DNA of 64,000 nucleotides, taken from contig NZ_SBIV01000004.1 of NCBI RefSeq assembly GCF_004765795.1, positions 186,001 through 250,000 of the forward strand. The letters run 5' to 3'. The DNA comes from Halorussus marinus. Its GTDB lineage: Archaea > Halobacteriota > Halobacteria > Halobacteriales > Haladaptataceae. The translations under genes were made by a program, and so were the position numbers. Each line of letters begins with the position of its first letter. The first letter of the stretch is position 1. The notes beneath the pieces are model-generated. The model made no database searches. It worked only from the letters and a program-made list of their open reading frames with translations, and was not told the origin of the DNA. Below are positions 15,106 through 56,236 of this stretch, one piece after another.

Positions 15106-16347
15106 CTACCGGCCGAGGTCCTCGTGGGCCGACGAGAGGTGCCGGGAGGCCAGCGCCGCCAAAAGCGATAGCTCGCCGGCGAGCGCGCCGACCGCGATGA
15201 TCTCGGCGAGCGCGTCGGCGTTGTCCCCCGCGGGGTCGCCGCCGCCCCGGAGTCCGAGCACGTCGAGGGCCTCCGACTGGGTCGGGAGCTTGGTGCCCCC
15301 GCCGACCGTGCCGACTTCGAGGCTGGCGAGGCTCACGCTGGCGTACAGCTCGTCTTGGCGGGCCTCGACGGTGGTGATCGCGTTCGAACCCTCCACGACC
15401 TGCGCGGCGTCCTGGCCGGTGGCGAGGAAGGCGGCCGCGACCACGTTCGCGGCGTGGGCGTTGAACCCCAGACTGCCGGCCTTCGCGCTCCCGACGAGGT
15501 TCTTTCGGGTGTTGGCCTCCTCGATGGCCTCGGGCGTGGTGTGGAGTCGCTCCTCGACGGTCTCGCGCGGGATCGTCACGTCGGCGGTCACGCTCCGGCC
15601 CCGACCCTCGACGGCGTTGATCGCGGCGGGCTTCTTGTCGGTACAGAGGTTCCCCGAGAGCGCGACCAGCGACGCCGGCGTCTCGTCTTCGACGACCTGT
15701 GCGGCCTCGCGGGTCGCGATGGTGGCCATGTTCATCCCCATCGCGTCTTTGGTGTCGTAGACGAACCGCAGGAAGACCGAGTCGCCGACCACGTAGGTGT
15801 CCACGTCGAGCAGTTCGCCGTGGCTGGTGGTCGACTCGGCGGCCTCCCGGAGGCGCTCGCGGTGGTCGCCGACCCACGAGACGACCTCCTCGGCCTCGGC
15901 GACGCCCGACACCCGGAAGACGGGCGCGCGGGTCATCCCCGACTTCGTCACCCGGGCGTCCGCGCCGCCCGCGGTCGCGACGACCGAACAGCCGCGGTTC
16001 ACGCTCGCGACCAGCGCGCCCTCGGTGGTCGCCAGCGGGAGGTAGTAGTCGCCGTCGGCCGACCCGCCGGCCACCGCCACGGGGCCGGCGACGCCCATCG
16101 GGATCTGGGCCGCCCCGACCATGTTCTCGACGTTGGCGTCGCTGGCCTGCGCGGCGTCGATACCGTAGTCGCCGACGGCGTCGAAGTCGGCGTCGGTCTC
16201 GGCTTCGAGCAGGCGGCGACGGGCCGCCGCGGCCGTCTCGGCGTCGACCCGGTCGTCCAGTTCGTGGAGTCGCAACTCGCCCGTGCGGACGCGTTCGGCG
16301 AGCGCCTCGGGATCGCCGGCCTCCGCGTCGGAATCGGCGTCGGTCAT
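15106..16347 (-). CDS. hmgA: HMG-CoA reductase (NADPH), class I
   Basis: A 413-residue enzyme reducing HMG-CoA to mevalonate, the committed step of archaeal lipid synthesis. Family motifs are intact: ENMVGAAQIPMGVAGP, the catalytic Glu in LATTEGALVASVNRG, DAMGMNMA for NADPH binding, the Asp/Lys in GNLCTDKKPAAIN, and the catalytic His near the C-terminus (LSSAHEDLG). The ATG at 16347 is chosen because upstream codons look non-coding. Residues 1-15 are acidic and disordered. An AT-rich TATA-like stretch lies about 65-75 bases upstream, so a short leader is likely. Confidence 0.96.
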   Translation of the reverse strand: MTDADSDAEAGDPEALAERVRTGELRLHELDDRVDAETAAAARRRLLEAETDADFDAVGDYGIDAAQASDANVENMVGAAQIPMGVAGPVAVAGGSADGDYYLPLATTEGALVASVNRGCSVVATAGGADARVTKSGMTRAPVFRVSGVAEAEEVVSWVGDHRERLREAAESTTSHGELLDVDTYVVGDSVFLRFVYDTKDAMGMNMATIATREAAQVVEDETPASLVALSGNLCTDKKPAAINAVEGRGRSVTADVTIPRETVEERLHTTPEAIEEANTRKNLVGSAKAGSLGFNAHAANVVAAAFLATGQDAAQVVEGSNAITTVEARQDELYASVSLASLEVGTVGGGTKLPTQSEALDVLGLRGGGDPAGDNADALAEIIAVGALAGELSLLAALASRHLSSAHEDLGR

Positions 16348-16410
16348 ACCCGGGTGGTCGGCCGGCCGGCCCCTAACAGTTCCCATTCACGGCGCGCCGG
16401 CGAGTCGCGA

Positions 16411-16425
16411 TTATAAATTATACTT
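16411..16425 (-). promoter_or_regulatory. AT-rich promoter element upstream of hmgA
   Basis: An ATTATAAATTATACT stretch is the only strongly AT-rich sequence ahead of hmgA. On the minus strand it contains TATAATTTATAAT. It marks the border between the GC-rich core and the AT-richer segment to its right. Confidence 0.45.
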
Positions 16426-16521
16426 TTGAGAGTTCTTGCTGGGTCAGCTCGCGTCAGGTCAGGGCCGAGGATTCTTAGGGAGTCACAGACAGCAGACTGA
16501 AAGCTGATAGCACTGAACGAG

Positions 16522-16540
16522 TCGTTCGGCATGCGAACGA
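16522..16540. repeat. 19-bp palindrome upstream of the MCP gene
   Basis: TCGTTCG, 5 central bases, CGAACGA: a perfect 7-bp inverted repeat about 85 bases before the chosen MCP start. It could be an operator or a hairpin in a leader; no factor can be assigned. Confidence 0.5.
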
Positions 16541-16624
16541 TTCTATGACACCGCGGTAAAGACGGGGAAAGGCGTGAAAGCCGTTAGGAAAGAATTGAAC
16601 TATACCTGCCAGAAACACGGCAGC

Positions 16625-17947
16625 ATGGCAATGAAAGAGGGCGGTTCGACGGCAGAAAAAGACTTCTCACAGCCTATTTCGGGAGGAAAAGAACTACCAG
16701 AGGACGAACTCTGGGACGTCCTTACAAAAAACCTCCGTCAGGTGATGGAATCGACGGGTGCGGCGATGCGTATGCTCGATTTGAATTTCAACGTCGTGGT
16801 CGAGAACGAGCAGATGAAAGAACTGGGCGGCGTAGATGCCGAGGAGAGCGAGTTCGTCAAGTGCTACGACCAGTTCTGTAATCCGGAGGTGTGCGGAACT
16901 GGAAACTGTACACTGAAACAGATCGTCGATGAAGAGAGCGAAGAGATCCGCGTCGAGGTAGAAAAAGAGAGTTACGACGGGCGTGTCATCCCAACAGAAC
17001 TAGTCGTCAGGCCGATCTATGACGCCGAAGGCGATATCGTCGCTATTAGTGAGACGTTCCAGGATATTTCAGCTCGTAAGACCGCCGTCAGCGATATCAA
17101 AACGGCTGTTGACGATCTCGAAGAATCGTCGGAGGAAGTGGCCGAAAACTCCCAAACGATCAGCGACCAAGCGTCCCACCAACTTGAGTCGATTACCGAG
17201 ATCTCCGAAGAGATCGCCTCGCTCACCGCAACGGTCGAGGAAATCGCCGCGACAACAGATCAGGTCGAATCCACCAGCCAGCGAGCCCGTGAAGAAGCTG
17301 AATCCGGGAAGACCGAAGCCGAAGAAACGATCGATATCATGGAAAGTATCGAGCGCGCGGCGGCCGACGTGACCGCAGATATTCGCGACCTCGACGAGAG
17401 CGTCCAGCAGATCGACGAACTCGTCGATGTTATCAACGACATTGCCGACCAGACGAACATGCTCGCGCTGAACGCCTCGATCGAAGCAGCCAACGCAGGT
17501 CAAGCTGGCGACGGCTTTGCAGTCGTCGCTGATGAGGTGAAATCGCTGGCCGAGGAGTCACAGCAACGCGCATCTGAGATCGAATCGATCGTCACTGATG
17601 TCCGGGAAAACACTTCCGAGACGGTCAAGAGCCTCGAAGAAACCAACGACGTTGTTCAGCAGGGTGCAGAGAAGATAGAAAGCTCCAGCGAGACGTTCAC
17701 GCAGATCGCTGACGTCGTCGAAGACGTATCTGACGGCGTCACAGAGGTCGCGGATGCGACGGACGATCAAGCCGCAAGCACCGAAGAGATCGCCAGTATG
17801 GTCGACCAGACTGCGGCGGACTTCGAACGGGTCGTCGACAAAGCAGAGGCCATCGCAGCCGCAAACGAACAACAGACCGAGCGTATTCGAGATATCAGTG
17901 CCGACGTGGATTCGATGGACTCGCTCGACGTGCAGAGCGAACTGTAA
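16625..17947 (+). CDS. Soluble methyl-accepting chemotaxis transducer with PAS domain
   Basis: A 440-residue cytosolic transducer with no membrane segment. A PAS-like domain (about residues 32-150) carries four evenly spaced cysteines, Cys80, 85, 90 and 95, suggesting metal, haem or redox sensing. The coiled-coil signalling domain follows, with the CheW/CheA-binding hairpin tip around residues 275-315 ([18 protein letters not shown]). ATG 16625 is preferred; an in-frame GTG at 16574 would add 17 residues including CQKH. Base use is clearly more AT-rich than the flanks, suggesting transfer. No che genes are in the window. Confidence 0.9.
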
Positions 17948-18003
17948 AAGTTCTGTTGCTATAGCGGTCTAGTCAAGTATTGTGAGTGATTTGAATACAT
18001 CTG

Positions 18004-18153
18004 GTGGTGGCCGCGTATCTCAGTTGCTCTCGCGACGAATTCGAGACAGTGCGTGACTGCCTTGACGAAATCGAACCCGTGGCCACGTCCGACGAACGAG
18101 CGGCTACTCAGGCCGTATCGATACGGCGTCTACGGACTGCACTGCTCCGTTGA
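18004..18153 (+). pseudogene. Short acidic ORF, possible 3' remnant of a lost gene
   Basis: This frame reads 49 codons from a GTG and encodes an acidic, protein-like sequence with RDEFETVRDCLDEIEP and a basic end RRLRTALLR. A stop lies just upstream, so if it was once part of a longer gene the 5' part is gone. Its stop falls inside the left arm of the inverted repeat. No family recognised; it may be a chance ORF. Confidence 0.3.
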
Positions 18154-18259
18154 ATAGCAGTGGTCGTGTAGATAAGTGAACTGAGTCACACTGTGAGTGG
18201 CTGTGAAAGGAGGTCTCAAATGTGGTGTCGCTTCACCCTCTCACAGGGGGCTATTCAAC
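18149..18259. mobile_element. Possible IS end or MITE relic with 10-bp inverted repeat
   Basis: GTTGAATAGC at 18149-18158 is matched by its exact reverse complement GCTATTCAAC at 18250-18259, enclosing about 91 bases with no coding content. The arrangement resembles a miniature transposable element or the fused ends of a deleted IS. No target duplication is obvious, and the family is not identified. Confidence 0.35.
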
Positions 18260-18295
18260 AGGGCCCCGCCAACAGACATCGAATGGCTGTCGGTT

Positions 18296-18811
18296 CTACC
18301 AGTGAACTTCGAAAGTCGTCTCGGGGCCGTCGTCATCGACCCTCGCGTGGGCGTATTCGGCTTCGAAGTGTTGGGCTGTGCCTTTGAGAAAGCCTTTCTC
18401 CCACTGCGTCGGGTAGGGTGTCGTCGAGGTGATCTCGGCTTGGTTCTCACCCGTCTTTTCGTACGTGTACTCGCCCGGTGCCTGGCGGTGTTCGGTTTCG
18501 TACATTTCGGGGAGGTGGTTCAGTCCCTCGTGTGGCGAGTCGATAGTCGATGTCCAATCGAGAAACCGCGGCGTGGACTCGCCGATCTTAGCCAGGGCGC
18601 TCTCGCCGGTGTTGCGTTCGACCGCCGTCAGTACGTGGAGAAACTTCGCAAGTGGATACCACTCGTCGGGTTGGGGATCGGGTCTGTCGATTCCCTCCTC
18701 GTCGAGCATATCCCGCATCCGACTCTGATACACGGACATCACTCCGTCGATGCAAACCTGTACCATCTCACCGCGTACGGTACCACTCGGCTCGTTGGCT
18801 GTGAGTGTCAT
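18296..18811 (-). CDS. Unknown protein coupled to the rhodanese
   Basis: A 171-residue soluble protein. It has a helical N-terminal part (SVYQSRMRDMLDEEGID, DEWYPLAKFLHVL) and a C-terminal part with PGEYTYEKTGENQAEITST and a TPYPTQWEKGFLKG segment. This layout reminds me of small haem-NO-binding-like or TIGR02265-like sensory domains, but similarity is only at pattern level and no ligand residue can be named. Its ATG overlaps the rhodanese stop by one base (TAATG), so the two are translationally coupled. It sits in the AT-richer segment. Confidence 0.75.
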   Translation of the reverse strand: MTLTANEPSGTVRGEMVQVCIDGVMSVYQSRMRDMLDEEGIDRPDPQPDEWYPLAKFLHVLTAVERNTGESALAKIGESTPRFLDWTSTIDSPHEGLNHLPEMYETEHRQAPGEYTYEKTGENQAEITSTTPYPTQWEKGFLKGTAQHFEAEYAHARVDDDGPETTFEVHW

Positions 18812-19686
18812 TAGAAATCGCCCTCCTTGAGTGCAGGCTCAGTGGCCTTCTCTACTGGCGCCGCGTCGTCGGCCGCCCATTCCGTCCACGACCCGTCGTA
18901 GTTGACAGCATCGACACCGAGGAGTTCCGAAAGAACGAACCACGTGATCGATGAGCGCTCCCCGATACGGCAATACGCGACCGTGGATCTGTCCGGGTCG
19001 ATGTACTCGCCGTAAATCTCTCGGAGTTCCGACTCTGACTTGAATGTGCCATCGGCGTTGACCGCTTTTCCCCACGGGACGTTTGCCGCGGTTGGAATGT
19101 GACCCTCGCGATCGGTGGTATTCGGGATCTCCGCTGGTGGCTTTTCACCACGGTACTCCTGTGGGTTTCGGACGTCGATAATCGGCCTGTCTCCGTCGAG
19201 ACTATCCATGATGTCTTCTTTGTACCCGCGGATGTCTTCGTTGGTCCCGTCGATCTCGTATTCGCGGGACGGGTACTCGACGTCGCCCTGCGTCTGTTCG
19301 TAGCCTTCGAGTCGCCAGTGCCGGCGGCCACCATCCAGCAACTGGATGTTGTCGTGCTGGTAGTAGTTAAGCACCCAGTAGGCGTGGCCGGCGAACCAGT
19401 TCGCTTGGTCGCCGTAGACGACGACCGTGGTGTCTCGCGTGATTCCCAGATCGCCGAACAATGATTCGGCCTCGCTCGGAGCAACGACGTTGCCGCCGAG
19501 CCCGTCGATGATGTCTTCTTCCCAGTCGATCTGCACGGCCCCCGGTATGTGCCAGTCGTCGTACACGTCCGGGTCCATATCGACTTCGACGAGCCGATAG
19601 TCGGGGTCGTCGGTCCGGAACCGGTCCAGGTGGTTACGAACCCATTCGGCCGATCGTACCGCGTCACTGTCGAGATGAGATGTCAC
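18811..19686 (-). CDS. Sulfurtransferase, tandem rhodanese domains
   Basis: A 291-residue thiosulfate/3-mercaptopyruvate sulfurtransferase type protein. An inactive N-terminal rhodanese domain (about residues 10-140; the active-site position reads VYGDQANWFAGH, without Cys) is followed by a C-terminal domain (about 165-280) with the catalytic loop CRIGERSS, active-site Cys239. Such enzymes move sulfane sulfur from thiosulfate to cyanide or thiols. The start is GTG at 19684-19686, just after the AT-rich upstream region. It forms a two-gene operon with the unknown protein downstream. Confidence 0.9.
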   Translation of the reverse strand: MTSHLDSDAVRSAEWVRNHLDRFRTDDPDYRLVEVDMDPDVYDDWHIPGAVQIDWEEDIIDGLGGNVVAPSEAESLFGDLGITRDTTVVVYGDQANWFAGHAYWVLNYYQHDNIQLLDGGRRHWRLEGYEQTQGDVEYPSREYEIDGTNEDIRGYKEDIMDSLDGDRPIIDVRNPQEYRGEKPPAEIPNTTDREGHIPTAANVPWGKAVNADGTFKSESELREIYGEYIDPDRSTVAYCRIGERSSITWFVLSELLGVDAVNYDGSWTEWAADDAAPVEKATEPALKEGDF

Positions 19687-19940
19687 AGGCAGAGATACTC
19701 AGTATCGGTACAAGTAACCGCCAACATCTTCTCAGAAAGTGAAAACTGCGTTCTTAATATTAATGCTCGTATTCTCATATACATAGTCGATCAACGAGCA
19801 CGCCCACCGTCCGACGCACAGTCCGATCTTTCCTCTGTGATTGCGCGAGTGCGATAATCGGGCGAGAGCACCAAGCCCAATAACAGCCGAGCCCGTCTCA
19901 GAAACCGTCCGGAATACGGAATCTGCGCTAACAACTACTG

Positions 19941-20468
19941 CTACAGTAGCCGGTACTCCCCGCGGCTCTCGGTGACCTCGCCACGGCGGACCAGTTTACC
20001 GAGCGCGTCACGGACGTAGTCGGCCGGGACGCCGCGCTCGTCGGCGTACGCGATCACCTCGTCTTCGGTCGGTCGGTCGAGCGCCCGGAGCGCGTCGAGG
20101 ACGGTGTCCTTGCGCGAGCGTCCCGAACCGGCCGTTCGGTTTTCGGCTCGCTCGCCGGCGGCCGCCACTTCGTCGGCGTCGATTCCCGAGGCTTCGAGGA
20201 ACGTCTCGTCGTCGACGACCGCCTCCTCAACGCGGGCCTCCATCTCCGAGAACGAGTCCAGTTGCGCGAACGACTCGCCCTCGCCTTGCCGGTTGGCGAG
20301 CATCGACGCCCGGACCTCCCGAGCGTGATCCTCGTCGTCGGTCTCGACGAACTTCTTTAGCTTCTCGAACTTCCTGCGCGTGCCACACCGCGGGCACTCG
20401 GTCGTCTCGGGCCGGCCCTCGACGAGCTTGAGCGCCCCGCAGTCGCTACAGCCGACGACGGCGTACAT
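19941..20468 (-). CDS. DUF5817 zinc-ribbon / winged-helix protein
   Basis: A 175-residue protein that begins with a zinc ribbon (CSDCGALKLVEGRPETTECPRCG; two CxxC pairs, residues 7-26). A helical middle follows, and the C-terminal domain (about residues 115-175) looks like a winged helix (LDALRALDRPTEDEVIAYA, LGKLVRRGEVTESRGEYRLL). I recognise the DUF5817 family of haloarchaea. The two nucleic-acid-binding-type modules suggest a DNA- or RNA-binding role, inferred only. Starting at 20468 puts the first CxxC at the expected place. It is divergent from icd. Confidence 0.85.
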   Translation of the reverse strand: MYAVVGCSDCGALKLVEGRPETTECPRCGTRRKFEKLKKFVETDDEDHAREVRASMLANRQGEGESFAQLDSFSEMEARVEEAVVDDETFLEASGIDADEVAAAGERAENRTAGSGRSRKDTVLDALRALDRPTEDEVIAYADERGVPADYVRDALGKLVRRGEVTESRGEYRLL

Positions 20469-25286: not shown

Positions 25287-28200
25287 ATGAACAGTACGCG
25301 AAACGCGGCTCGGTTGCTTGCAGTCGTCTTCTCGGTGTTGCTGGTGACGTCGGCGGCCGGGGGCGGCGCGCTGTCGGTCATCGGGACCGCGCAAGCACAG
25401 GAGGCCAGCGACGTGTTGTATCGCGTGAACGCGGGCGGCGACGCGGTGGAATCGCCGAGCGGTCCCGACTGGTCGGGGACCGGCGACCAGTACGTGACCG
25501 GCGGATCCGCGTACGGGGACTACTCGGGGACCGTCTCTCTCGACGGCTCGGTCCCGGCGGGGACGCCCACGGAGATATTCGGCACCGAAGTGTACGGCGA
25601 CCAGCAGTGGACCTTCTCGGAGAACGTCCAGAGCGACCAGCAGTACGAGGTCCGCCTGTACTTCGCCGAGGTCTACCACGGCGTGTCCAACGATAACGGA
25701 GCGGGCGCGCGCGTCTTCGACGTCGCCATCGAAGACGAGACGGCACTGAGCGCCTACGACATCTTCGAGGAGGTCGGCGCGGAGACCGGCGTGATGAAGT
25801 CGTTCACGGTCACCCCCTCGGACGGCTCCATCGACGTCAACTTCACGACGATCGAAGACAACGCGAAGGTCTCGGCCATCGAGATCGTCGAATCCGAACC
25901 GGAGCCGAACGCGCTCGGCGGGCCCTCGAACGTCGACTTCGGAACCGTCCTCACGGGCGAGTCGGCGACCGAGACGGTCACGGTCACGAACCTCGGCGAC
26001 GACGGCGACCCGGCGATCGACGTTTCGGGCGTCTCGGTCACCGGCGCGGACGCCGACGCGTTCTCGGTCGGGTCGGCGTCCCAGACGACGCTCGCCCCCG
26101 GCGAGTCTGCCGACCTGCCGGTGACGTTCTCGCCCGCGGACGCGCAGGCGAAGCAGGCCACGCTCGAAGTCGCCCACACCGGCGACGACTCCCCGCTGGC
26201 GATCGACCTCGCCGGCGAGGGTGCGAGCTCGGCGAACCCCGCGTTCTCGAAGAGCACCTTGCAGGGGTTCAGCGCGGGTAGTCCGACGGCCGTCGACTTC
26301 GGTCCCGACGGTCGGGCGTACGTCTCCACGCAGGGCGGGACGGTCTACGCGCTGAACGTCACCCGGACCGGCGAGAACAGCTACGCGGTCGAAAACGAGG
26401 TCGAGATCGGCGCGATCGAGGCGATTCCGAACCACGACGACGCCGGCGACTACACCCCCGGCGAGACCGACCGCCAGATCACGGGGCTGACGGCCGCCGG
26501 AACCGCCGACCAGCCGGTCGTCTACGTCTCCTCGTCGGACCCCTCGATCGACGTCGGGCAAGACGACGACGACACCGACACCAACTCCGGGGCGATCTCC
26601 CGGCTGACGCTCACGCCGGGGAGCGACGGCGTGCTCCAGACCGGCGAGATCGACCACGACGTGCTGGTGATGGGCCTGCCTCGCTCCGAGGAGAACCACG
26701 CCACCAACGGTCTGGACCTCTCGGCGGACGGCGAGACGCTGTACGTCGCCCAGGGCGGCCACACCAACAAGGGCGCGCCCGGCGACAACTTCGGCCACAC
26801 GCCCGAGTACGCGCTCTCGGCCGCGATCCTCGAGATCGACCTCGCCCAGATCGAGGCCGAGTATCAGGCCAAGAACCTCCAGAGCTACGACCCACAGGGC
26901 GCCAGCCAGTCGTACCCCGATCTGGAGTTCTACTACGCCGTTCCGACGATTCAGAACGACGACGCCACCGACGGCGACGACCTGCCGTTCGGCGGCAACG
27001 ACGGGATCAATCAGGCGAAACTCGTCGAGGGCAGTCCGGTTCAGATCTACTCGCCGGGCTACCGGAACCCCTACGATCTGGTCGTGACCCAGACCGGACA
27101 GGTGTACGCCGCGGATCACGGGCCAAACGGCGGCTGGGGCGGTCAGCCGGCCGACGCGGACGGCGCCGTCACGGCCGACGCCGCGTCGGTGACCAACCAC
27201 CCCAACGAGGCCGGTAGCTTCTCGACCAGCGACCAGCTCGCGAAGGTCGACGAGGGCGACTACGGCGGACACGCCGCGCCGATCCGGGCGAACCCGACCG
27301 GCGCGGACATCTACGACGCCGACGGGGAGATGGTGTTCGACATCACCGAGTCGAACTCCCCCGTGGCGCCGAGTCAGGTGAACCCGGTGGAGGCCGACTA
27401 CATTCCGCCGACCGGCGGCTCGCCCGACCCGGGCGCTCCCGCGGGCACCGCCAACACGATGGAGTTCGAAGACGGCCAGCACGTCCTCTTCGGCCCGACG
27501 GGCGGTCTCGACGAGTACACAGCCTCGAACTTCGGCGGCGCGATGGCGGGCGACCTCCTCCAAGTCGAGCTCAGCGGCGACGTCGAGCGCGTCGAACTGA
27601 GCGCCGACGGCGAGACGGTCGTGAACGTCGAGACCATCTTCAACACCGGCGGCCCGCTCGGGATCGACGCGGTCGGCGACGACGGCCCGTTCCCGGGCAC
27701 CGTCTGGACCGCGAACCACGGCGGCAACGACGTCACCGTCTTCGAGCCGGTCGACTACGGCGACACCGGTGGCGGCGACGGCGAGCAGTGTACCGGCGCC
27801 GACGACGCGACACTCGACGAGGACGGCGACGGCTACGACAACGCAGACGAGATCGACGCGGGCTCGGACCCGTGCTCGGCGGCCTCGACGCCCGCAGACT
27901 TCGACGGCGACGGGACCTCGAACCTCAACGACCCCGACGACGACGGCGACGGGCTCGACGACACCGAGGACCCGTTCGCGCTCGACCCGGCAAACGGCCT
28001 CGAGACGACCCCGCCGGTCCAGCACGACCTCTCGGAGCTCAGCCTGTTCGGCGAGAACGGGCAGGGCTGGACGGGGCTGATGACCAACGGGAGCGACTAC
28101 CGGGAGCGCTACGACCCGACCCAGATGACGGTCGGCGGCGCAGCCGAGGTCCTGACGGTCGAGGGCGTGCCCGCGGGCGACGCCTACGCGGACACGAACA

Positions 28201-31200
28201 CCCAGCAGTACGGGTTCCAGTTCGGCGTCGACCCGCCCGCGGAACCGTTCGTCGTCGAGACGACGGTCGCCTCCTTCCCGGAGAATCCCGAGGACTTCCA
28301 GTCGGCCGGCGTGTTCGTCGGCACCGGCGACCAGTCGAACTACGTCAAGCTCGTCGCCGCGGCCAACGGCGGCGACGGCGGCGTCGAGTTCGCGCAGGAA
28401 GTCGGCGACGAGTTCGAGGGGGAGATGACCGACGAGAGCGCGGTCACGGGGAACGACGTCACGCTCGGGCTGACGGTCGACCCGACGACCGACCCGGCGC
28501 CGGACAACGATATCGACGAGGTCGCTGTGACAGCCGAGTACGAGGTCGACGGGACGACCGCCGAGGTCGGAACCGCCGCGATGCCGGCGAACTGGCTCGA
28601 CACCGCGGACGGCGTCGCGCCCGCGGTCGGCGTCGTCTCGACGTCGAACGGTGCGAGTTCGACGTTCGACGCGACGTGGACCGATATCTCGGTCGAGTAC
28701 GTGACCCCGCCGAACGAGGCTCCCGGCGCCGCGTTCACCTACTCGCCGAGCCAGCCGACCGCGACCGAACAGGTGGCCTTCGACGCGTCGGGATCGAGCG
28801 ACGCCGACGGCTCGATCGCGAGCTACGAGTGGGACTTCGACGGCGACGGCGAGACCGACGCGACCGGCCAGAGCGTCACCCACGCGTTCGACGCGGCGGG
28901 CGAGTACGACGCGACCCTGACCGTCACCGACGACGAGGGCGCGACGAACGCGACGATCAAGACCGTCGCGGTGGCCGAGCCGGAGACCGAGACGCTCGCG
29001 GAGGCGGTCGCGAGCTACGGCGAGGACGACGACTCGACGATCAGTCTGGCGGAGATCCAGACCGCCATCAACTGGTGGTCGACCGGTGCAGAAGTGCCCA
29101 ACACCGGCGGGGAGACGTTCTCGCTTGAGGAGATCCAGCAGTTGATCAACCTCTGGTCGACCGGCGCGACCGTCGGCGACGGGTCCGACGGCGGAAGCGA
29201 GCAGACCGGCTCCGCGCTGGTCGAGATCACGCCCGACTCGGGCGTCGAGACCAGCACCTACGGCGGCGATACCTATCAGGTCACCAACACCGGCGAGAAG
29301 AACATCACGTCGGTGTCGTTCGACCTGAGCAGTTCGTCCCTTCCCGACATGGTGTTCGACCCGCAGGGCACCGCGGGCGATCCGACCGGCGAGGGGCTCA
29401 ACGTCGCCAGCGACGGCGGTACCGGGATCGTCACCGAACCCGGCACGGGCGAGGCGTTCGCCGCGCCGCACAACGGCCAGAACGCCGACGACGGCTACGA
29501 CGTGATGACCGTCGAGTTCGACGACTTCGAGCCGGGCGAACAGGCGACCTTCTGGGCCGACAACGACCCGACCACGATCAAAGGCGCGACGATCGCCTCC
29601 CAAGAGGCCGGCCCGGTTTCGGGGCTCGAACTCGCGCGCTCGACCGTGACGGTGACGTACGCCGACGGGACGACCCAGACCACCCAGCTGATGGGCGACG
29701 GGAGCGCCGGCGGCGCGACCGCCGTCGTGAACGCCACCGAGGCCCCCGCGCCGACCGTCGACGTGGCGGGCGTCTCGCTCGACGACGCCGCGCTCGAGGA
29801 CTACCACAGCGCGGCGACCGTCTCGGAGGCGAGCCAGACCGTGGCGGTCTCGGGCCAACCCGGCGAGACGGTCACGCTGGTCCGGGTCGAGGCCGAACTC
29901 GCGCTGAGTAACGTCCCGGACGCCGACGGCGACGGCGAGCCGGGGTACGACGTCGAACCCTACGAGGCGAACAACGCCCAGAACGTCGCGTACTACACGG
30001 CGACGATCGGGTCCGACGGGACCGCGACGATCCCGGTGACGCTGACGAACACGACCGGGGACGGCGACGACGCGGGCTACAACTACTTCGTGGCCGCCCA
30101 CGGCGAGGCCGCCGGCGACATGGGGCTCGCGTCCGACGTGGTCGTGCTGAAGTACGACCAGAACGCCGGCGACGGCGGCGACGCCGGCGGTGGCGGCGAC
30201 ACCGTGTTCGCGCTGAACGCCGGCGGCTCGGCGTACACCGCCGCCGACGGGACGGTGTACCAGGCCGACACCAACTTCGACGGCGGCACCGCGTACGATA
30301 CGACCGAGCAGATCGGCGACACGCAAGACGACCCGCTGTACCAGACCGAGCGGTACGGAAACTTCACCTACGACGTCCCGCTCGAGGACGGCGAGTACGA
30401 GGTCACCCTGCAGTTCGCCGAGATCTTCCAGGGCGTCGCGGCGAGCGACTCGCCCGACTCGACCGGGCCGACCGACGGCACGAACGAGAACGACCGCGTG
30501 TTCGACGCCTCGATCGAGGGCGAGGAGGTCCTGTCGAACTACGACATCTTCGCGGAGGTCGGGCCGCTGAACGCGACCGAGGAGACGTTCACCGCGACCG
30601 TCTCGGACGGCGAACTGTCAGTCGAGTTCAGCACCGTCTACGACAACGCGAAGGTGAGCGCGATCGAGGTCGCCGAGGTCGACGACGGCTCCGCCACCAA
30701 CGCCGCGCCGACGATCGACTCGATCGCAGACCAGACGCTCACCGTGGGCGACTCGACGACCGTTCCGGTGAGCGCCGACGACGCCGACGGCGACGACGTG
30801 TCGGTGTCGGTGACCGGCCCGGACTTCCTCACGCTCGCGAACGGTGAACTGACCGTCGCCCCGCAATCGGGCGACGCCGGCACGTACACCGTCGACGTCA
30901 CCGCCGCCGACGGTAACGGCGGAACGGCGACCGAGACGTTTCAGGTGACCGTCGAGCAAGCGGCCGGCGGCGACGCCAGCTCGGCCGACTTCGCGGTCAA
31001 CACCGGCGGCGCCATCGACGCGAGCACGTACGGCGCGGGCTCGTTCGAGATCACCAACACCGGCGACGGGCAGATCGCGTCGGTCACCTACGACCTGAGC
31101 TCCGCGGCGTTCCCCGACGTAGTGTTCGATCCCGAGGGGACCGCGGGCGACTCGGGCGCAAAGGGCTTCACGCCCGACGGCGGCGCGAGCGCGGTCGACC

Positions 31201-32456
31201 CCTCGGGGTCGTTCGCCGCCCCGCACAACGGCCAGAACGGCGAGGACGGCTACGACAAACTCGCCATCGACTTCGACGACTTCGAGGGCGGCGAAACGTT
31301 CGCCTTCTCGGCCGACGTCGACCCGACCAGCATCAAGAACGCCGACGGGACCGGCGCGGCGGGTTCGGTCTCGGGGCTGGAGCTGTCGGGCGCGACGGTG
31401 ACCGTCGAGTACGCCGACGGGGCGACCCAGACGACCCATCTGTTCGGCGACGCGAGCGCGGGCGGCTCGCAGGCCACCTCGAAGGCCGACGCCGCCGGCG
31501 CGCCGACGATCGGCGTCGAGGCCGTCTCGCTCGATTCGAGCGCGCTCGACGACTATCACAGCGCGGCGACCGTCTCGGAGCCGACCCAGACCGTGACTGT
31601 CTCCGGGCCGGCCGGCGGGACCGTCGAACTGCTCCGAATCGAGGGACAGCTCGAACTCGCCAATCAGGCCGACGGCTACGATCTGGAGGCCTACGAGGCC
31701 AACACCGCCGAGAGCGTCGCGTACCAGACCGTCGAACTCGACGCCGACGGGCAGGCCGCGGTCGAGGTGTCGCTGACCAACACGTCGAGTAGCGGCGTCG
31801 AAGGCGGGTTCAACTACCTCCTCGCCGCGGTGGAGGACGGCGGCGACACCGGCCAGCCCTCGAACGTGGCCGTGCTGAAGTACGACCAGAACGCGGGCGC
31901 CGACGACCCCGACACCGCGGGGCCGCAGGCGCTCCACCGCGTGAACGCGGGCGAGAGCGCGACTATTTCTGCGACCGACGACGGCCCGAACTGGACCGGC
32001 GTCGCGAACGCGAGTTCGCAGTACCTCGCCTCGGTCGCAGAGGAGGACGGCGGGACCTACTGTGGCGGCGACGCCCTCACGCCCGACGACACCGTCCCCG
32101 AGTCCACGCCCGACGGCGTGTGGAACTGCGAGCGCTACGGGGACATGTCCTGGGAGTTCCCGGTCGACCCCGGTCAGGACGTCGAGGTTCGACTCTCCCT
32201 CGCCAACTCCTACCCGGGCGCGAGCGCGCAGGGCGACCGGCAGTTCAACGTCTCCATCGAGGGGTCGCAGGTCCTGACGCAGTACGACCCGGTGGCCGAC
32301 GTCGGACACGCGACCGCCACGACCAAGAGCGTCACCGTCACCGACGACGGGGACGGCACCATCGCGGTCGACTTCGAGCAGGGCGCCGCCGAGAACCCGG
32401 AGGTCAGAGCCATCGAGATTCTGACGGTCGAGGACGGCACCGACGGGGGGAGCTGA
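25287..32456 (+). CDS. Giant exported malectin / sugar-dehydrogenase-like propeller protein with dockerin-like module
   Basis: A 2389-residue secreted protein with a signal peptide (1-37). Modules in order, rough residues: malectin-like 43-200; choice-of-anchor-D Ig-like 215-312; beta-propeller like glucose/sorbosone dehydrogenase 315-825 (GYRNPYDLVVTQTGQVYAAD); thrombospondin type-3 Ca-binding repeats 838-902; concanavalin/laminin-G-like 912-1143; PKD 1142-1233; duplicated dockerin-like WW module 1235-1297; unknown modules A and B 1309-1625; malectin-like 1638-1800; Ig/cadherin-like 1805-1890; second A and B 1900-2206; malectin-like 2213-2383. Malectins bind carbohydrate. No C-terminal anchor. 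It heads a four-gene cluster; function inferred as surface glycan binding/oxidation. Confidence 0.85.
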   Translation: MNSTRNAARLLAVVFSVLLVTSAAGGGALSVIGTAQAQEASDVLYRVNAGGDAVESPSGPDWSGTGDQYVTGGSAYGDYSGTVSLDGSVPAGTPTEIFGTEVYGDQQWTFSENVQSDQQYEVRLYFAEVYHGVSNDNGAGARVFDVAIEDETALSAYDIFEEVGAETGVMKSFTVTPSDGSIDVNFTTIEDNAKVSAIEIVESEPEPNALGGPSNVDFGTVLTGESATETVTVTNLGDDGDPAIDVSGVSVTGADADAFSVGSASQTTLAPGESADLPVTFSPADAQAKQATLEVAHTGDDSPLAIDLAGEGASSANPAFSKSTLQGFSAGSPTAVDFGPDGRAYVSTQGGTVYALNVTRTGENSYAVENEVEIGAIEAIPNHDDAGDYTPGETDRQITGLTAAGTADQPVVYVSSSDPSIDVGQDDDDTDTNSGAISRLTLTPGSDGVLQTGEIDHDVLVMGLPRSEENHATNGLDLSADGETLYVAQGGHTNKGAPGDNFGHTPEYALSAAILEIDLAQIEAEYQAKNLQSYDPQGASQSYPDLEFYYAVPTIQNDDATDGDDLPFGGNDGINQAKLVEGSPVQIYSPGYRNPYDLVVTQTGQVYAADHGPNGGWGGQPADADGAVTADAASVTNHPNEAGSFSTSDQLAKVDEGDYGGHAAPIRANPTGADIYDADGEMVFDITESNSPVAPSQVNPVEADYIPPTGGSPDPGAPAGTANTMEFEDGQHVLFGPTGGLDEYTASNFGGAMAGDLLQVELSGDVERVELSADGETVVNVETIFNTGGPLGIDAVGDDGPFPGTVWTANHGGNDVTVFEPVDYGDTGGGDGEQCTGADDATLDEDGDGYDNADEIDAGSDPCSAASTPADFDGDGTSNLNDPDDDGDGLDDTEDPFALDPANGLETTPPVQHDLSELSLFGENGQGWTGLMTNGSDYRERYDPTQMTVGGAAEVLTVEGVPAGDAYADTNTQQYGFQFGVDPPAEPFVVETTVASFPENPEDFQSAGVFVGTGDQSNYVKLVAAANGGDGGVEFAQEVGDEFEGEMTDESAVTGNDVTLGLTVDPTTDPAPDNDIDEVAVTAEYEVDGTTAEVGTAAMPANWLDTADGVAPAVGVVSTSNGASSTFDATWTDISVEYVTPPNEAPGAAFTYSPSQPTATEQVAFDASGSSDADGSIASYEWDFDGDGETDATGQSVTHAFDAAGEYDATLTVTDDEGATNATIKTVAVAEPETETLAEAVASYGEDDDSTISLAEIQTAINWWSTGAEVPNTGGETFSLEEIQQLINLWSTGATVGDGSDGGSEQTGSALVEITPDSGVETSTYGGDTYQVTNTGEKNITSVSFDLSSSSLPDMVFDPQGTAGDPTGEGLNVASDGGTGIVTEPGTGEAFAAPHNGQNADDGYDVMTVEFDDFEPGEQATFWADNDPTTIKGATIASQEAGPVSGLELARSTVTVTYADGTTQTTQLMGDGSAGGATAVVNATEAPAPTVDVAGVSLDDAALEDYHSAATVSEASQTVAVSGQPGETVTLVRVEAELALSNVPDADGDGEPGYDVEPYEANNAQNVAYYTATIGSDGTATIPVTLTNTTGDGDDAGYNYFVAAHGEAAGDMGLASDVVVLKYDQNAGDGGDAGGGGDTVFALNAGGSAYTAADGTVYQADTNFDGGTAYDTTEQIGDTQDDPLYQTERYGNFTYDVPLEDGEYEVTLQFAEIFQGVAASDSPDSTGPTDGTNENDRVFDASIEGEEVLSNYDIFAEVGPLNATEETFTATVSDGELSVEFSTVYDNAKVSAIEVAEVDDGSATNAAPTIDSIADQTLTVGDSTTVPVSADDADGDDVSVSVTGPDFLTLANGELTVAPQSGDAGTYTVDVTAADGNGGTATETFQVTVEQAAGGDASSADFAVNTGGAIDASTYGAGSFEITNTGDGQIASVTYDLSSAAFPDVVFDPEGTAGDSGAKGFTPDGGASAVDPSGSFAAPHNGQNGEDGYDKLAIDFDDFEGGETFAFSADVDPTSIKNADGTGAAGSVSGLELSGATVTVEYADGATQTTHLFGDASAGGSQATSKADAAGAPTIGVEAVSLDSSALDDYHSAATVSEPTQTVTVSGPAGGTVELLRIEGQLELANQADGYDLEAYEANTAESVAYQTVELDADGQAAVEVSLTNTSSSGVEGGFNYLLAAVEDGGDTGQPSNVAVLKYDQNAGADDPDTAGPQALHRVNAGESATISATDDGPNWTGVANASSQYLASVAEEDGGTYCGGDALTPDDTVPESTPDGVWNCERYGDMSWEFPVDPGQDVEVRLSLANSYPGASAQGDRQFNVSIEGSQVLTQYDPVADVGHATATTKSVTVTDDGDGTIAVDFEQGAAENPEVRAIEILTVEDGTDGGS
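29212..31905 (+). repeat. Internal duplication of modules A+B around the second malectin
   Basis: The A+B pair at 29212-30162 is repeated at 30985-31905. Shared landmarks include VFDP.GTAGD, FAAPHNGQN..DGYD, GSVSGLEL/GPVSGLEL, DYHSAATVSE and VLKYDQNAG. The copies have diverged at protein level, so the duplication is old. Confidence 0.8.
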
Positions 32457-32458
32457 CG

Positions 32459-32677
32459 ATGCGAGCGACGATCGACTCCCGGCCTCGGCCGAACGCCGGC
32501 CGACGGTCGCCCGAGCCCGATGCGAGCGGTCCCGAGCCGAGCGCACGCCCGACGATCGCCGACGCCAGCGCCCCGCCGACGCCGACCGCGCTCGTCGGGA
32601 CGGCGGCGAACCACTCGATCGCGACACCGCGCGTCGCGATCACACCTCACACCACCGCGGAGGGTGGTCGACAATGA
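32459..32677 (+). CDS. Short bridging ORF between two exported-protein genes (doubtful)
   Basis: A 72-codon ORF starting two bases after the stop of the giant gene and ending with a TGA that overlaps the next gene's ATG (ATGA). The product is basic and Pro/Ala/Arg-rich (SRPRPNAGRRSPEP), unlike haloarchaeal proteins, and I recognise no family. It may be only a device for translational coupling across the gap, or a chance ORF. Confidence 0.3.
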   Translation: MRATIDSRPRPNAGRRSPEPDASGPEPSARPTIADASAPPTPTALVGTAANHSIATPRVAITPHTTAEGGRQ

Positions 32678-34983
32678 ACACGAAAAACACCCAGAGGTCA
32701 ACGCGGTTCACCGCCGCGAGCCTCGCGTTGCTGGTCCTGCTCTCGGCGTTCGCGCCGGTGGGGATCGGCGGCGCCCAGCAGGCAGGCGTATCGATAGCTC
32801 AATCGGTCGAGGGCGACGCGACGGTCGCGCCCGGCGACGTCGTCACCGTCGAGGCGACGGTGACTGCACCGGGCCTCAACGGCCCGGCCATCGACGTCGG
32901 CGCGCCCGACGGCTGGACAGTCACCAGCCAGTCGGCCGACGGCGGAAACTTCAAACCCGCCGAGAGCCAGTGGGTCTGGCTCTCAGGCGACCACACGGTG
33001 ACCTACACCGTGGCGGTCCCCGCCGACGCTTCGGAGGGCGATTACGCCCTCTCGACAGAGGGTTCGGGGATCGTCCCGGACACCGGCGAGCGCGTGACCG
33101 AAACGACCGAGACGACGATCACGGTCCAGCAAAACGAGGCGCCGAACGCGGACGCGGGGAGCGACCAGACCGTCGAGGAGGGCGCGACGATCAGCCTCGA
33201 CGCCTCGGGATCGAGCGATCCCGACGGCGACGACCTGACCTACGCGTGGACCCAGACCGGCGGTCCCAGCGTCTCGCTGACCGGGGCCGACACCCCCACG
33301 CCGTCGTTCGACGCGCCCGACGAGCCCCAGCAGACCCAGACGTACGCCTTCGAGGTCGCGGTCTCGGACGGTCAGACGACGACCACCGACGCGGTGACCG
33401 TGACGGTCGAACCGGTCGACGATCCGCCGACCGCCGACGCGGGCGACGACCAGACCGTCGCGGAAGGGAGCACGGTCCAGCTATCCGGGTCGGGAACCGA
33501 CGTCGACGACGCGACCCTGTCGTACGCGTGGACTCAGACCGGCGGTCCCGACGTCTCGCTGAGCGACGCCGACGTCCCGGCGCCGTCGTTCACCGCGCCG
33601 GACGTCGAGAGCCCGACCGACGTCGTCTTCGAGCTGACAGTCTCGGACGGCGAGACCGCGGTCGCCGACGCGGTGACGGTCACCGTCGAGCCGACCGCGC
33701 CCGCGAACGAGCCGCCGACCGCCGACGCGGGCGACGACCAGACGGTCCCGGCGGGTGAGACAGTCGCGCTCGACGCCTCGGGATCGAGCGACCCCGACGG
33801 CGACGACCTGACCTACGCGTGGACCCAGACGGGCGGTCCCAGCGTCTCGCTGATCGGGGCCGACACCCCCACGCCGTCTTTCACCGCGTCGGGCCTCGAC
33901 GGCGACGCGACGCTGACCTTCGAGGTCGAAGTCGGCGACGGGCAGGCGACCGACACCGATTCGGTGGCCGTGACCGTGACCGCGAGCGCCGACAACCAGC
34001 CGCCGACCGCCGACTTCGCAGTCGACCCGAGTTCGCCCGTCCCGGGCGAATCGGTCAGCTTCGACGCCTCGGGGTCGAGCGACCCCGACGACGACCTGAG
34101 CTACGAGTGGACGATCGAGGGTGCCACCGCAGGTCCCGAGGAGTCGACGCTACTCGACTCGGACTTCGAGAGCGGGTCGCTCGCGACCGACGGGTGGACC
34201 CACGACGCAATCGAGAGCGGTGCCACCGCGGGCGTCGACGACGCAACCGCGAACTCCGGGAGCCAGTCGGCCTCCCACTACGGCGGTGAGGGCGCGCTCG
34301 TCTCGCCCGCGCTCGACGCGAGCGAGGCCGACTCGCTGACGGTGAGCTACTGGATCCAGAAGGGCTCTGACGCGTTCAGCGAGAACCCCGACCCGAACAC
34401 CGGCGAGGACCTGATCGTCGAGTACCTCGACCAGAACGGCGACTGGGTCGAACTCGACCGCGTCGAGGACACCGTCGAGTCCGGCGCCGAGTTCACGACG
34501 AACTTCACCGTCGAGGCCGACGCCGCGCTCCACGACGGCTTCCAACTCCGATTCCGGCAAGAGGGCGCGTCGGTCACGTCCGGCGACTACTGGCACGTCG
34601 ACGACGTGTCGGTCGCCGCGACCGACGGGGCCGAGACCGCCCCAATCCAGAAGTCGGGCCAGACGGTCTCGCACGCGTTCGATCAGGCCGGTACCTACGA
34701 CGTGACCCTGACGGTCGCCGACGGCGACGGCGCGACCGACGCGGTGACGAAGCCCGTCGAGGTGATCGAGGACCAACAACAGCCCCAGTCGATTCCGGAG
34801 GCGGTCGCGGGTCAGGACGGCACGGTCGACACCGGCGAGATCCAGCAGGCGATCAGCTGGTGGGTGAACGACGAGCCGGTTCCGGACACCGACGGCGAGA
34901 CCATAGACACCCAGACGATACAGACGCTCATCGACCTGTGGGTCGAGAACGCGACGGTCGCAAACGGGGGTGAGTCCCCGTGA
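32674..34983 (+). CDS. Exported PKD-repeat protein with jelly-roll and dockerin-like modules
   Basis: A 769-residue secreted protein with a signal peptide (1-34). An NEW3-like beta domain (about 38-150, GWTVTSQSADGGNFKP) is followed by three PKD/REJ-type Ig domains (150-440, each with DASGSSDPDGDDLTYAW-like or related motifs). A fourth PKD is split by a jelly-roll/MAM-like domain of about 150 residues (FESGSLATDGWTHDA to YWHVDDVSVAA). The C-terminus (707-763) is the same dockerin-like WW module seen in the upstream giant protein. No enzyme signature. Likely an adhesion or matrix component docked to a scaffold. Its stop overlaps the next gene's GTG. Confidence 0.85.
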   Translation: MNTKNTQRSTRFTAASLALLVLLSAFAPVGIGGAQQAGVSIAQSVEGDATVAPGDVVTVEATVTAPGLNGPAIDVGAPDGWTVTSQSADGGNFKPAESQWVWLSGDHTVTYTVAVPADASEGDYALSTEGSGIVPDTGERVTETTETTITVQQNEAPNADAGSDQTVEEGATISLDASGSSDPDGDDLTYAWTQTGGPSVSLTGADTPTPSFDAPDEPQQTQTYAFEVAVSDGQTTTTDAVTVTVEPVDDPPTADAGDDQTVAEGSTVQLSGSGTDVDDATLSYAWTQTGGPDVSLSDADVPAPSFTAPDVESPTDVVFELTVSDGETAVADAVTVTVEPTAPANEPPTADAGDDQTVPAGETVALDASGSSDPDGDDLTYAWTQTGGPSVSLIGADTPTPSFTASGLDGDATLTFEVEVGDGQATDTDSVAVTVTASADNQPPTADFAVDPSSPVPGESVSFDASGSSDPDDDLSYEWTIEGATAGPEESTLLDSDFESGSLATDGWTHDAIESGATAGVDDATANSGSQSASHYGGEGALVSPALDASEADSLTVSYWIQKGSDAFSENPDPNTGEDLIVEYLDQNGDWVELDRVEDTVESGAEFTTNFTVEADAALHDGFQLRFRQEGASVTSGDYWHVDDVSVAATDGAETAPIQKSGQTVSHAFDQAGTYDVTLTVADGDGATDAVTKPVEVIEDQQQPQSIPEAVAGQDGTVDTGEIQQAISWWVNDEPVPDTDGETIDTQTIQTLIDLWVENATVANGGESP

Positions 34984-36500
34984 CCCGCGAGGTCGGCGCC
35001 ACGTTCGGGCGAGCGCTCGCGCTCGCCGTCGCCGCGCTGGTGGCGGTCGCCGCGATCGGCCCCGCGGCCGCGATCCCCCAACCCGCCGGCGCAATCGGAC
35101 TCGCACAGACGCCCGAGACCACGACTGTCGCCCCCGGTGAGACGGTCACCCTTGAAACGACGATCAACGCGACGGGCTACAACGCGCCCGGGCTCGCGGT
35201 GAGCCTGCCCGACGGCTGGAGCGTCCAGAGCCAGTCGACCGACGGGCCGTTCACGTACAAGTCCGCCACCGACGAGTGGGTCGGGCTCTCGGGCGGCGAG
35301 TACACCGTGACCTACACCGTCGCCGTCCCCGACGACGCCGCGGCCGGCGAGTACACCGTGAGTGCCGACGGCTCGGCTATCGACCCCGAGACCGACGCGT
35401 TCGTCGAGGCCACCGACGGCTCCACGGTGACGGTCCAGGACGACTCCACGACCGATCCCGAGCCGGAGCCCGATCCCGACCCGACGACCGTGTCGGTGAG
35501 CCAGTCAGCGAGCGGTCAGGTCGCGCCCGGCGGAACGGTGACGATGACCGCGCAGGTCGACGCGACCGGACTCGACGCGCCCGCGCTCGCGGTGGACCTG
35601 CCCGACGGCTGGAGCGTTCAGAGCCAGACCGCCGACGGCCCCGCGAGCTACAAGCCGGCCACCGGCGAGTGGGTCTGGCTCGCCGGCGACGTCGATGCCG
35701 TCTACACCGTCGAGTACGTGGTGGCGGTCCCCTCGAACGTGCCCGCGGGCGAGTACACCCTCACGGCTGAGGCGTCGGCGCTCGACGCCGAGGACACGCA
35801 GGTGACCGACGCGGCCGAGACGACCGTCACCGTCGCCGAGGACGACGGCCAACAGCCCGCCGGACCGTCGACGGCCGCCCGTCTCTCGCCGTCGAGCGAG
35901 TTCGCAGGCGTCGATCAGATGGCGACATTTGACGTGGTCGTCGACGCCGCAGACGGCGGCATCGGAGTCACCGACTTCACCGTGTCGGTCGCCGACACCG
36001 AGGTCGCCGCCATCACCGACGCGTCGCTCGCGGAGAACGGCACGGAGGGTCTCAGCGACGTCGAGATCGCCGAGGACGGCTCGTCGGTGAGCGTCGAGTC
36101 AGTACTCATGGACACCGGCGACACCGGGTCGGTGACCCTCGCGACTGTCACCGTCGAGACGGCCGCGGAGGGCGCGACCGACCTCGATCTCACCGTCTCG
36201 GCGCTCGGGACCGAGGGCGGGACCGCCTACGTGGTGACCGAGACCGTCGGCGCGACGCTCGACGTCTCGGAGCTGGTGGTCGGCGACGCGGCGAATCCGG
36301 CCGCCGACCCCGACGGCGACGGCGTCTACGAGGACGTCAACGGCGACGGCGCCGTCGACATCACCGACGTGCAAGCGCTCTGGAGCGCCCGAAACGACCC
36401 GACGGTCGCGAACAACCCCGGCGCGTTCGACTTCAACGGCGACGGGTCGTTCAGCATCCTCGACGTGCAGGCGCTCTACAGCCAGGAGCTGGGGGCCTGA
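34980..36500 (+). CDS. Exported scaffoldin-like protein: two NEW3-like, cohesin-like and dockerin domains
   Basis: A 506-residue secreted protein, GTG start overlapping the upstream stop (GTGA), signal peptide 1-32. Two NEW3-like repeats (about 40-155 and 170-285) share DGWSVQSQ with the upstream protein. Residues 297-432 match a cohesin-like beta-sandwich (ATFDVVVDAADGGIGVTDF, GSVTLATVTVE). Residues 443-506 form a textbook type-I dockerin: two Ca-binding repeats, DVNGDGAVDITDVQALW and DFNGDGSFSILDVQALY. Cohesin plus dockerin in one chain is the architecture of an adaptor scaffoldin. Partner specificity cannot be read from sequence. Confidence 0.85.
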   Translation: MTREVGATFGRALALAVAALVAVAAIGPAAAIPQPAGAIGLAQTPETTTVAPGETVTLETTINATGYNAPGLAVSLPDGWSVQSQSTDGPFTYKSATDEWVGLSGGEYTVTYTVAVPDDAAAGEYTVSADGSAIDPETDAFVEATDGSTVTVQDDSTTDPEPEPDPDPTTVSVSQSASGQVAPGGTVTMTAQVDATGLDAPALAVDLPDGWSVQSQTADGPASYKPATGEWVWLAGDVDAVYTVEYVVAVPSNVPAGEYTLTAEASALDAEDTQVTDAAETTVTVAEDDGQQPAGPSTAARLSPSSEFAGVDQMATFDVVVDAADGGIGVTDFTVSVADTEVAAITDASLAENGTEGLSDVEIAEDGSSVSVESVLMDTGDTGSVTLATVTVETAAEGATDLDLTVSALGTEGGTAYVVTETVGATLDVSELVVGDAANPAADPDGDGVYEDVNGDGAVDITDVQALWSARNDPTVANNPGAFDFNGDGSFSILDVQALYSQELGA

Positions 36501-36505
36501 CCCTC

Positions 36506-37381
36506 ATGACGAGAACGATCGAGACGCGACCCGCGACGATCGCGGTCGCGGGGCTCGTGGCGCTCGTGCTGGCGGTGCCGGCGGTCGGCGCCGCGGGCGG
36601 GGCGGCGGTCGGCCTCTCGTCGGCCGCCGAGCGGACCGCGGTCGGCCAGACCGCGACGTTCGACGTGGTCGTCGACAGCGCAGACGGCGGCGTCGGCGCC
36701 TACACCGCGACCGTCTCGGTGGCGGACCCCGACGTCGCGGCGATCACGGGCGTCGAACTCGCCGGCGATCCCGTCGAGTCGGTCGAAGTCGCCGAGGACG
36801 GCTCGTCGGCCGACATCGAGGCCGCGCTGATGAACACCAGCGACGCCGGATCGGTGGTCGTCGCGACCGTCACGGTCGAAGGCGAGGCGGCGGGTGCGAC
36901 CGATCTGGCCCTCTCGGTGTCCGAACTCGGCGACGAGGACGGCACCGCGTACACGGTGACCGACGAGACCGGCGCGACGCTCGACGTTCGAGCGAACGAC
37001 GCCGAAGGCGACGGTGCACAAGAAAACAGTGAGGACGCGAACGGCGACGGCGACGCCGACGTCGTCGGCGCCGACGGTGAGAGCAGTGGCGACCCCGACA
37101 GCGACGACGACACCGACGCCGCTACCAGCGACGGCGACGGGGCCGACTCGACGTCGCTCGCGACCACGACGACCGTCGCCGACGGGTCGGCCGACACCGC
37201 GTCGACGGCGACTGAGACGACGGTCGACCGAACGTCGGCTCAGACCGATCCGGGATCGGCCGACGACGGCGACGGGGGCGCCGACCGCTCGGACGGTCCG
37301 GCCCTCTCGGCCGTGTTCCTGCTCGTCGCGGTCCTCGCGGCGCTCGCGGCCGGCGCGGTCGTCGCGTTCCGCGACCGATAG
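36506..37381 (+). CDS. Cell-anchored cohesin-like protein
   Basis: A 291-residue protein with a signal peptide (1-28), one cohesin-like domain (32-162) closely similar to that of the upstream protein (shared ATFDVVVD, DPDVAAIT/DTEVAAIT, VAEDGSS/IAEDGSS, GATLDV), a Thr/Asp/Ser-rich linker (163-262) typical of O-glycosylated cell-wall spans, and a C-terminal membrane helix (265-287, ALSAVFLLVAVLAALAAG) ending in Arg-Asp-Arg. No PGF-CTERM motif. It starts 5 bases after the upstream stop. It probably anchors dockerin-bearing partners to the cell surface. Confidence 0.83.
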   Translation: MTRTIETRPATIAVAGLVALVLAVPAVGAAGGAAVGLSSAAERTAVGQTATFDVVVDSADGGVGAYTATVSVADPDVAAITGVELAGDPVESVEVAEDGSSADIEAALMNTSDAGSVVVATVTVEGEAAGATDLALSVSELGDEDGTAYTVTDETGATLDVRANDAEGDGAQENSEDANGDGDADVVGADGESSGDPDSDDDTDAATSDGDGADSTSLATTTTVADGSADTASTATETTVDRTSAQTDPGSADDGDGGADRSDGPALSAVFLLVAVLAALAAGAVVAFRDR

Positions 37382-55982: not shown

Positions 55983-56236
55983 GGCTGGTCGTTCGCCCGA
56001 CCGAGCAAAATGGTTTGCGTCTCGGCGCGTGTGTCCGAAAACGCGGCTCGCAGGGCGGGATCTGTGGCGACACCGCTGGCGATATTTGCGGGCGTTCACA
56101 TGTCACTAACTTATTAGGGGCCTCGTACCGGCCGCTTAATCCTCCTGTAACCCGGGTAATAGCCCGTCAACCCGCCAAACGGTGCGAAACGGTAGGCCCT
56201 GTTTATTGGCGGGTCCGGCGATATGATGGCACGCCT

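Follow-up and report, generated by a model that had tools for sequence, protein, structure and literature searches.

A candidate surface-anchoring gene pair of haloarchaea: cohesins and dockerins with interchangeable cargo

Ever since Archaeoglobus, archaeal cohesins and dockerins have been a curiosity in want of an explanation. In one array of these modules, the dockerin of Archaeoglobus fulgidus ORF2375 (residues 432–506) and the cohesin of ORF2376 (residues 29–162) formed the strongest and most specific pair (PMC9705933), and this binding is in trans, between the products of consecutively numbered ORFs. ANME archaea, in the passages of PMC9012536 that deal with their repertoire, have dockerin-plus-multi-cohesin proteins and S-layer-linked dockerins. 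The window analyzed here, a stretch of 64,000 nucleotides from the 3.76 Mb genome of Halorussus marinus, holds four consecutive exported genes on one strand (Table 1), as an earlier sequence-only reading had already reported. The third and fourth of these show the A. fulgidus type of layout: adjacent genes, with a terminal dockerin in one and an N-terminal cohesin in the other. We consider it probable that genes 3 and 4 form a two-gene surface-display module, in which gene 3 is held by gene 4 in trans, and this two-gene unit turns the old curiosity into a testable system.

Table 1. Features of the four-gene cluster (positions in the window; residues are those of the encoded protein)
Feature	Positions	Strand	Description
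Gene 1	25287..32456	+	2389 aa; exported malectin / ASH / propeller / PKD / malectin protein, internal WW module
Gene 1 beta-propeller	26229..27791	+	residues 315–835; weakly glucose/sorbosone-dehydrogenase-like
Gene 1 WW module	28998..29183	+	residues 1238–1299; putative docking module
Gene 1 malectin domain, top-scoring of three	30204..30665	+	residues 1640–1793; Pfam
72-aa ORF between genes 1 and 2	32459..32677	+	probably not a gene
Gene 2	32674..34983	+	769 aa; exported; NEW3-like N-domain, PKD repeats, C-terminal WW module
Gene 2 WW module	34792..34971	+	residues 707–766; C-terminal position as typical of dockerins
Gene 3	34980..36500	+	506 aa; GTG start overlaps gene 2 stop; two NEW3-like domains + cohesin + dockerin
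Gene 3 cohesin	35880..36266	+	residues about 301–429; aliphatic specificity class
Gene 3 type-I dockerin	36306..36479	+	residues about 443–500; two Ca2+ loops; positions 10/11 = IT / IL
Gene 4	36506..37381	+	291 aa; signal peptide, cohesin, acidic Ser/Thr linker, C-terminal membrane anchor
Gene 4 cohesin	36602..36988	+	residues about 33–161; same class as gene 3 cohesin
Gene 4 membrane anchor	37295..37369	+	C-terminal hydrophobic segment

The four genes had been described as separated by tiny or overlapping gaps. This is true of genes 2 and 3, which overlap by 4 bases, and of genes 3 and 4, which are 5 bases apart, but not of genes 1 and 2. Their gap is 217 bp unless the 72-aa ORF within it is counted, and this ORF is probably not a gene because it is unconserved: a syntenic Halobellus plasmid lacks it. 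Pfam recognizes PKD and the three predicted malectin stretches in gene 1 (PF11721, E 4e-66), PKD repeats in gene 2, NEW3-like domains and the expected two-repeat type-I dockerin in gene 3 (Dockerin_1, PF00404, E 1.4e-9, residues 450–499), and nothing at all in gene 4. Elsewhere in the window, the interval 16001–20000 has a GC content of 0.58, against about 0.69 in the remainder, which suggests an acquired segment, and 56237–58447 encodes an exported 736-aa protein of repetitive, ‘ENVTVENATI’-like sequence, around whose gene the 2-kb interval 56001–58000 has an AT skew of 0.40.

Are the cohesins real? The Pfam cohesin model, PF00963, matches neither gene 3 nor gene 4, and single-sequence searches of the PDB and Pfam with the window cohesin found nothing; we therefore used profile and fold methods. 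An iterated profile seeded with the two window cohesin domains gathers homologues from many haloarchaea, and 7 of the 46 anchored, gene 4-type homologous domains are matched by Pfam Cohesin itself (best E 3.7e-5). An AlphaFold model of the cohesin–dockerin part of gene 3, built on a 59-sequence alignment, has a mean pLDDT of 92 and a pTM of 0.81. Its best PDB match is 2xdh, a noncellulosomal cohesin from A. fulgidus (E 6e-9, TM 0.74), and the top 42 Foldseek matches to the gene 3 domain—2xdh and the next 41—are all cohesins. As modeled, the domain has the nine-stranded jelly-roll fold of cohesins, and the call of a cohesin in gene 3 stands, silent though PF00963 is. For gene 4, the orthologous pair of a congener (L062) was modeled as a read-through fusion, and this aligned best to a solved cohesin dyad, so both L062 cohesins have the fold. 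The homologues and the fused pair together support the gene 4 domain type as a cohesin, and the anchored cohesin proposed for this gene survives along with its linker, rich in Ser, Thr and Asp, and its hydrophobic C-terminus.

The dockerin is less of a puzzle. The C-terminus of gene 3 is a cohesin followed by a canonical type-I dockerin, and PF00404 matches all 59 of the aligned homologues of that dockerin (E up to 10). Across 156 dockerins, the Ca2+ ligand at loop position 1 is Asp in every first repeat and in 155 of the second repeats, and that at position 12 is Asp in all 156, in both repeats.

When 293 order-level genomes were searched with gene 3, 120 gave a match. We compared 156 distinct cohesin–dockerin (Coh-Doc) proteins, chosen for similarity to the Coh-Doc region rather than for their neighborhoods. 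A cohesin gene lies directly downstream, on the same strand, in 116 of the 154 cases with enough downstream sequence, and directly upstream in 15 of 144; the sample is rich in orthologues, and these counts are not counts of independent events. Most of the downstream partners (105 of 116) have no dockerin, and the median distance between the two genes of a pair is 25 bp. What precedes the Coh-Doc region varies widely: among the paired genes, the N-terminal cargo belongs to no fewer than eight families unrelated to one another. The partner adjoins in 62 of 68 cases where the cargo is PhoX, in 16 of 21 where it is of the window type, in 11 of 17 in a subtilase/PKD group outside Halobacteria, and in all six where it is a 5'-nucleotidase (UshA) and all six where it is an SNase; further cargo families are single cases. 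The pair extends beyond Halobacteria, to an ANME-2 genome (L252) among others. Archaeal cohesins and dockerins had been regarded as isolated cases; the Coh-Doc/anchored-cohesin pair is a widespread, cargo-swapping module, instead.

Two kinds of Coh-Doc gene have no adjoining partner: those of PhoD type (0 of 7) and those with a beta-helix (0 of 6). The PhoD-type phosphatases occur in L104, L107, L111, L114, L122, L129 and L237. Each of these seven genomes also has a PhoX pair whose dockerin class is that of the PhoD protein, which suggests that the PhoD proteins may share the anchor of the PhoX pair.

Of the 105 dockerin-free partners, 91 have a hydrophobic segment at the C-terminus; of the 156 Coh-Doc proteins, none has. 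To judge by these sequences, the downstream protein looks like an anchor and the Coh-Doc protein like its docked cargo. No sortase-type C-terminal signal scored over the NCBIfam cut-off in the halobacterial anchors tested. Our searches of the open-access literature turned up no publication on Coh-Doc pairs of haloarchaea. More elaborate arrangements can be found, too. One haloarchaeal protein (L151:3602-6700, minus strand) has five cohesins and a dockerin, a scaffoldin-like architecture, and the neighbors of its gene are a Coh-Doc gene and a small gene with a cohesin; and one haloarchaeal MAG, QS_4_69_34, encodes many dockerin-only proteins (L217, L222, L223, L232, L233, L235, L247).

The dockerins fall into two specificity classes according to the residues at positions 10/11: an aromatic class, with PhoX, PhoD, SNase and most others, and an aliphatic class, with the window, the 5'-nucleotidase and the beta-helix proteins. 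The class is usually identical in both repeats, and both cohesins of a system carry a class-matching motif, [LIFV][AS]G or [VI]G[AV], with few exceptions. Within a cargo protein, cohesin and dockerin almost always share one class. Seven columns separate the classes best in the anchor cohesins, and three of them align with Asn37, Gly123 and Ala125 of CipA (MAFFT, three modes in agreement), which are three of four residues named as contacting the dockerin recognition motif (PMC5772552). By a simple hypergeometric estimate, made post hoc, the chance of such an overlap is about 4e-4. Two of these three columns are among the top four in the cargo cohesins. Enrichment of class-switch columns on the canonical binding strands 8-3-6-5 as a whole is not significant. 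The class split is essentially one deep event (2–3 changes), below the minimum number of independent switches, and so does not amount to independent coevolution of cohesin and dockerin. On a joint cohesin tree, class changes 2 times versus 13 changes between anchor and cargo position: within a class, cohesins have moved between the cargo and the anchor, each taking the place of the other, and across classes they hardly ever have. That one dockerin class reads both kinds of cohesin fits this pattern.

How might the pair work? Anchoring in trans is the best-supported mechanism, by analogy, because the A. fulgidus ORF2375 dockerin binds the ORF2376 cohesin strongly, and we infer that the window pair binds likewise. 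The predicted cohesin of gene 4 would sit on the outside of the cell membrane; gene 3 would be exported with no anchor of its own; and its C-terminal dockerin, loaded with Ca2+, would plug into the gene 4 cohesin and so be kept at the surface. The genome offers a closed set of parts for this—one dockerin, in gene 3, two cohesins in two proteins, and two WW modules. Counting against it are the partnerless PhoD and beta-helix genes, the single deep origin of the class split and the lack of enrichment on the binding strands. What is displayed here would be NEW3 and PKD structural modules together with the malectin, propeller and PKD domains of genes 1 and 2, the latter perhaps joining through their WW modules. 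Such material suggests a glycan-binding or adhesive surface layer, and glycans would be its expected ligands.

Because dockerin and cohesin are present together in the cargo and agree in class, bound copies of gene 3 could accept further copies, or other dockerin-bearing partners. The module might then be self-extending, the anchored cohesin nucleating a head-to-tail string of cargo. We hold this extension only tentatively and would sooner bet against it; if true, archaea would possess surface filaments of phosphatases, nucleases and adhesive proteins, built with no scaffoldin.

The same pairing of modules can be turned inward. The gene 3 dockerin might bend back to its own chain's cohesin and so close or stiffen the C-terminus, which would leave the anchored cohesin of gene 4 to some other ligand. 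In most Coh-Doc proteins a same-class cohesin does lie only 12–20 residues upstream of the dockerin, and the pTM of 0.81 for the two-domain fragment of gene 3 implies a defined packing, one that fits contact in cis as well. The fused-pair model of L062, by comparison, reaches a pTM of 0.64 and does not position the anchor cohesin relative to the dockerin with confidence. We think this intramolecular clasp unlikely, nonetheless: it leaves unexplained the downstream cohesin gene, mostly anchored and dockerin-free, found in 116 of 154 cases, and the A. fulgidus dockerin binds the cohesin of the neighboring ORF in trans (PMC9705933).

Genes 1 and 2 bear on the more ambitious reading, the one first proposed for the locus, that genes 1, 2 and 3 all dock on cohesins in a cellulosome-like complex and attack polysaccharide. 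The domain order of gene 1 recurs in homologues from other genera. Its propeller occurs in 13 of the 293 order-level genomes, always alongside a Coh-Doc match, and 12 of these genomes have the two within about 10 kb of one another, so the suspected conservation of the cluster is real and, by gene neighborhood, genes 1 and 2 appear to belong to it in other genera, too. The congener, L062, and Halobellus sp. DFY28 both have a four-gene cluster in which each of the two upstream genes bears a WW module; the Halobellus annotation labels the anchored cohesin as hypothetical only. The glucose/sorbosone-dehydrogenase label for the propeller has proved a weak one: PDB entry 2ism matches with E 0.009, and Pfam GSDH scores one homologue at E 2.6e-5, just under the cut-off.

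The WW modules of genes 1 and 2 had been called dockerin-like. As dockerins they are not detectable: Pfam has no match for either, and a profile–profile comparison with dockerins (hhalign) gives P 0.02–0.03, which is not significant. The gene 1 homologues of L063 and L075 have a canonical dockerin at their end, instead, and this makes a docking role for the WW module plausible by analogy. WW-like modules also end proteins of roughly 330 aa that have no obvious signal peptide (L166, L167, L177), and its range therefore goes beyond proteins that are exported. One further WW-like module (L173:1369-1656), a weak match (E 0.0095), has an intact EF-hand-type loop in its first repeat (DLNGDGDLQKRE); it is possible, from this sequence, that it links WW modules to dockerins.

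A polysaccharide-degrading complex could thus claim the malectin and PKD modules, the dehydrogenase-like propeller, the four-gene clusters of other genera, and the dockerins of the L063 and L075 homologues. We nevertheless judge it very unlikely. The cluster has no glycoside hydrolase, lyase or other polysaccharide-degrading enzyme; the WW modules are not demonstrably dockerins and have relatives in proteins lacking an obvious export signal; and the genome holds one dockerin only. A cellulosome proper we reject outright: that single dockerin is on gene 3 and no plant cell wall hydrolase in the genome carries one, its two cohesins are in two proteins with no multi-cohesin scaffoldin, and the cluster has no hydrolase. 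That the modules are mere relics, or purely structural Ca2+ folds that bind no partner, strikes us as scarcely credible, even if a 1999 paper reportedly called those of A. fulgidus an ‘enigmatic vestige’ in its title, since the Ca2+ ligands are near-invariant over 156 dockerins and the pair is retained with different cargo families and throughout the phylum.

Anchoring of gene 3 by gene 4 is the reading we prefer, then, and if it is true the pair is a general, Ca2+-dependent way for archaea to keep secreted enzymes at the cell surface. Phosphorus-scavenging enzymes are among the paired cargoes—PhoX, 5'-nucleotidase and nuclease—and the two specificity classes would supply ready-made orthogonal plug-and-socket pairs from salt-loving organisms.

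Genes 3 and 4 resemble ORF2375 and ORF2376 of A. fulgidus in being consecutive, with a C-terminal dockerin in the one and a cohesin just after the N-terminus of the other. ORF2375, we take it, bears a cohesin as well. The A. fulgidus cohesin 2xdh is the closest structure to the window cohesin, and the gene pairs themselves are likened by their domain positions. They differ in cargo: that of the window is NEW3 modules, with malectin/PKD genes upstream. ANME archaea, as portrayed in the relevant passages of PMC9012536, are similar in exporting cohesin and dockerin proteins with varied cargo, and a cargo-swapping gene pair is absent from that portrayal. With the clostridial cellulosome (scaffoldins CipA and ScaA, type-I cohesin–dockerin), the window system shares the cohesin fold, the two-loop Ca2+ dockerin with its symmetric recognition positions, and an anchoring cohesin on the cell surface; it differs in having no scaffoldin of repeated cohesins, no cellulases and no SLH anchor, and in combining a cohesin and a dockerin of the same class within one protein. 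On balance, the locus is best read as a variant of the noncellulosomal cohesin–dockerin kind: a probable surface-anchoring pair, conserved among archaea, whose cargo can be exchanged.
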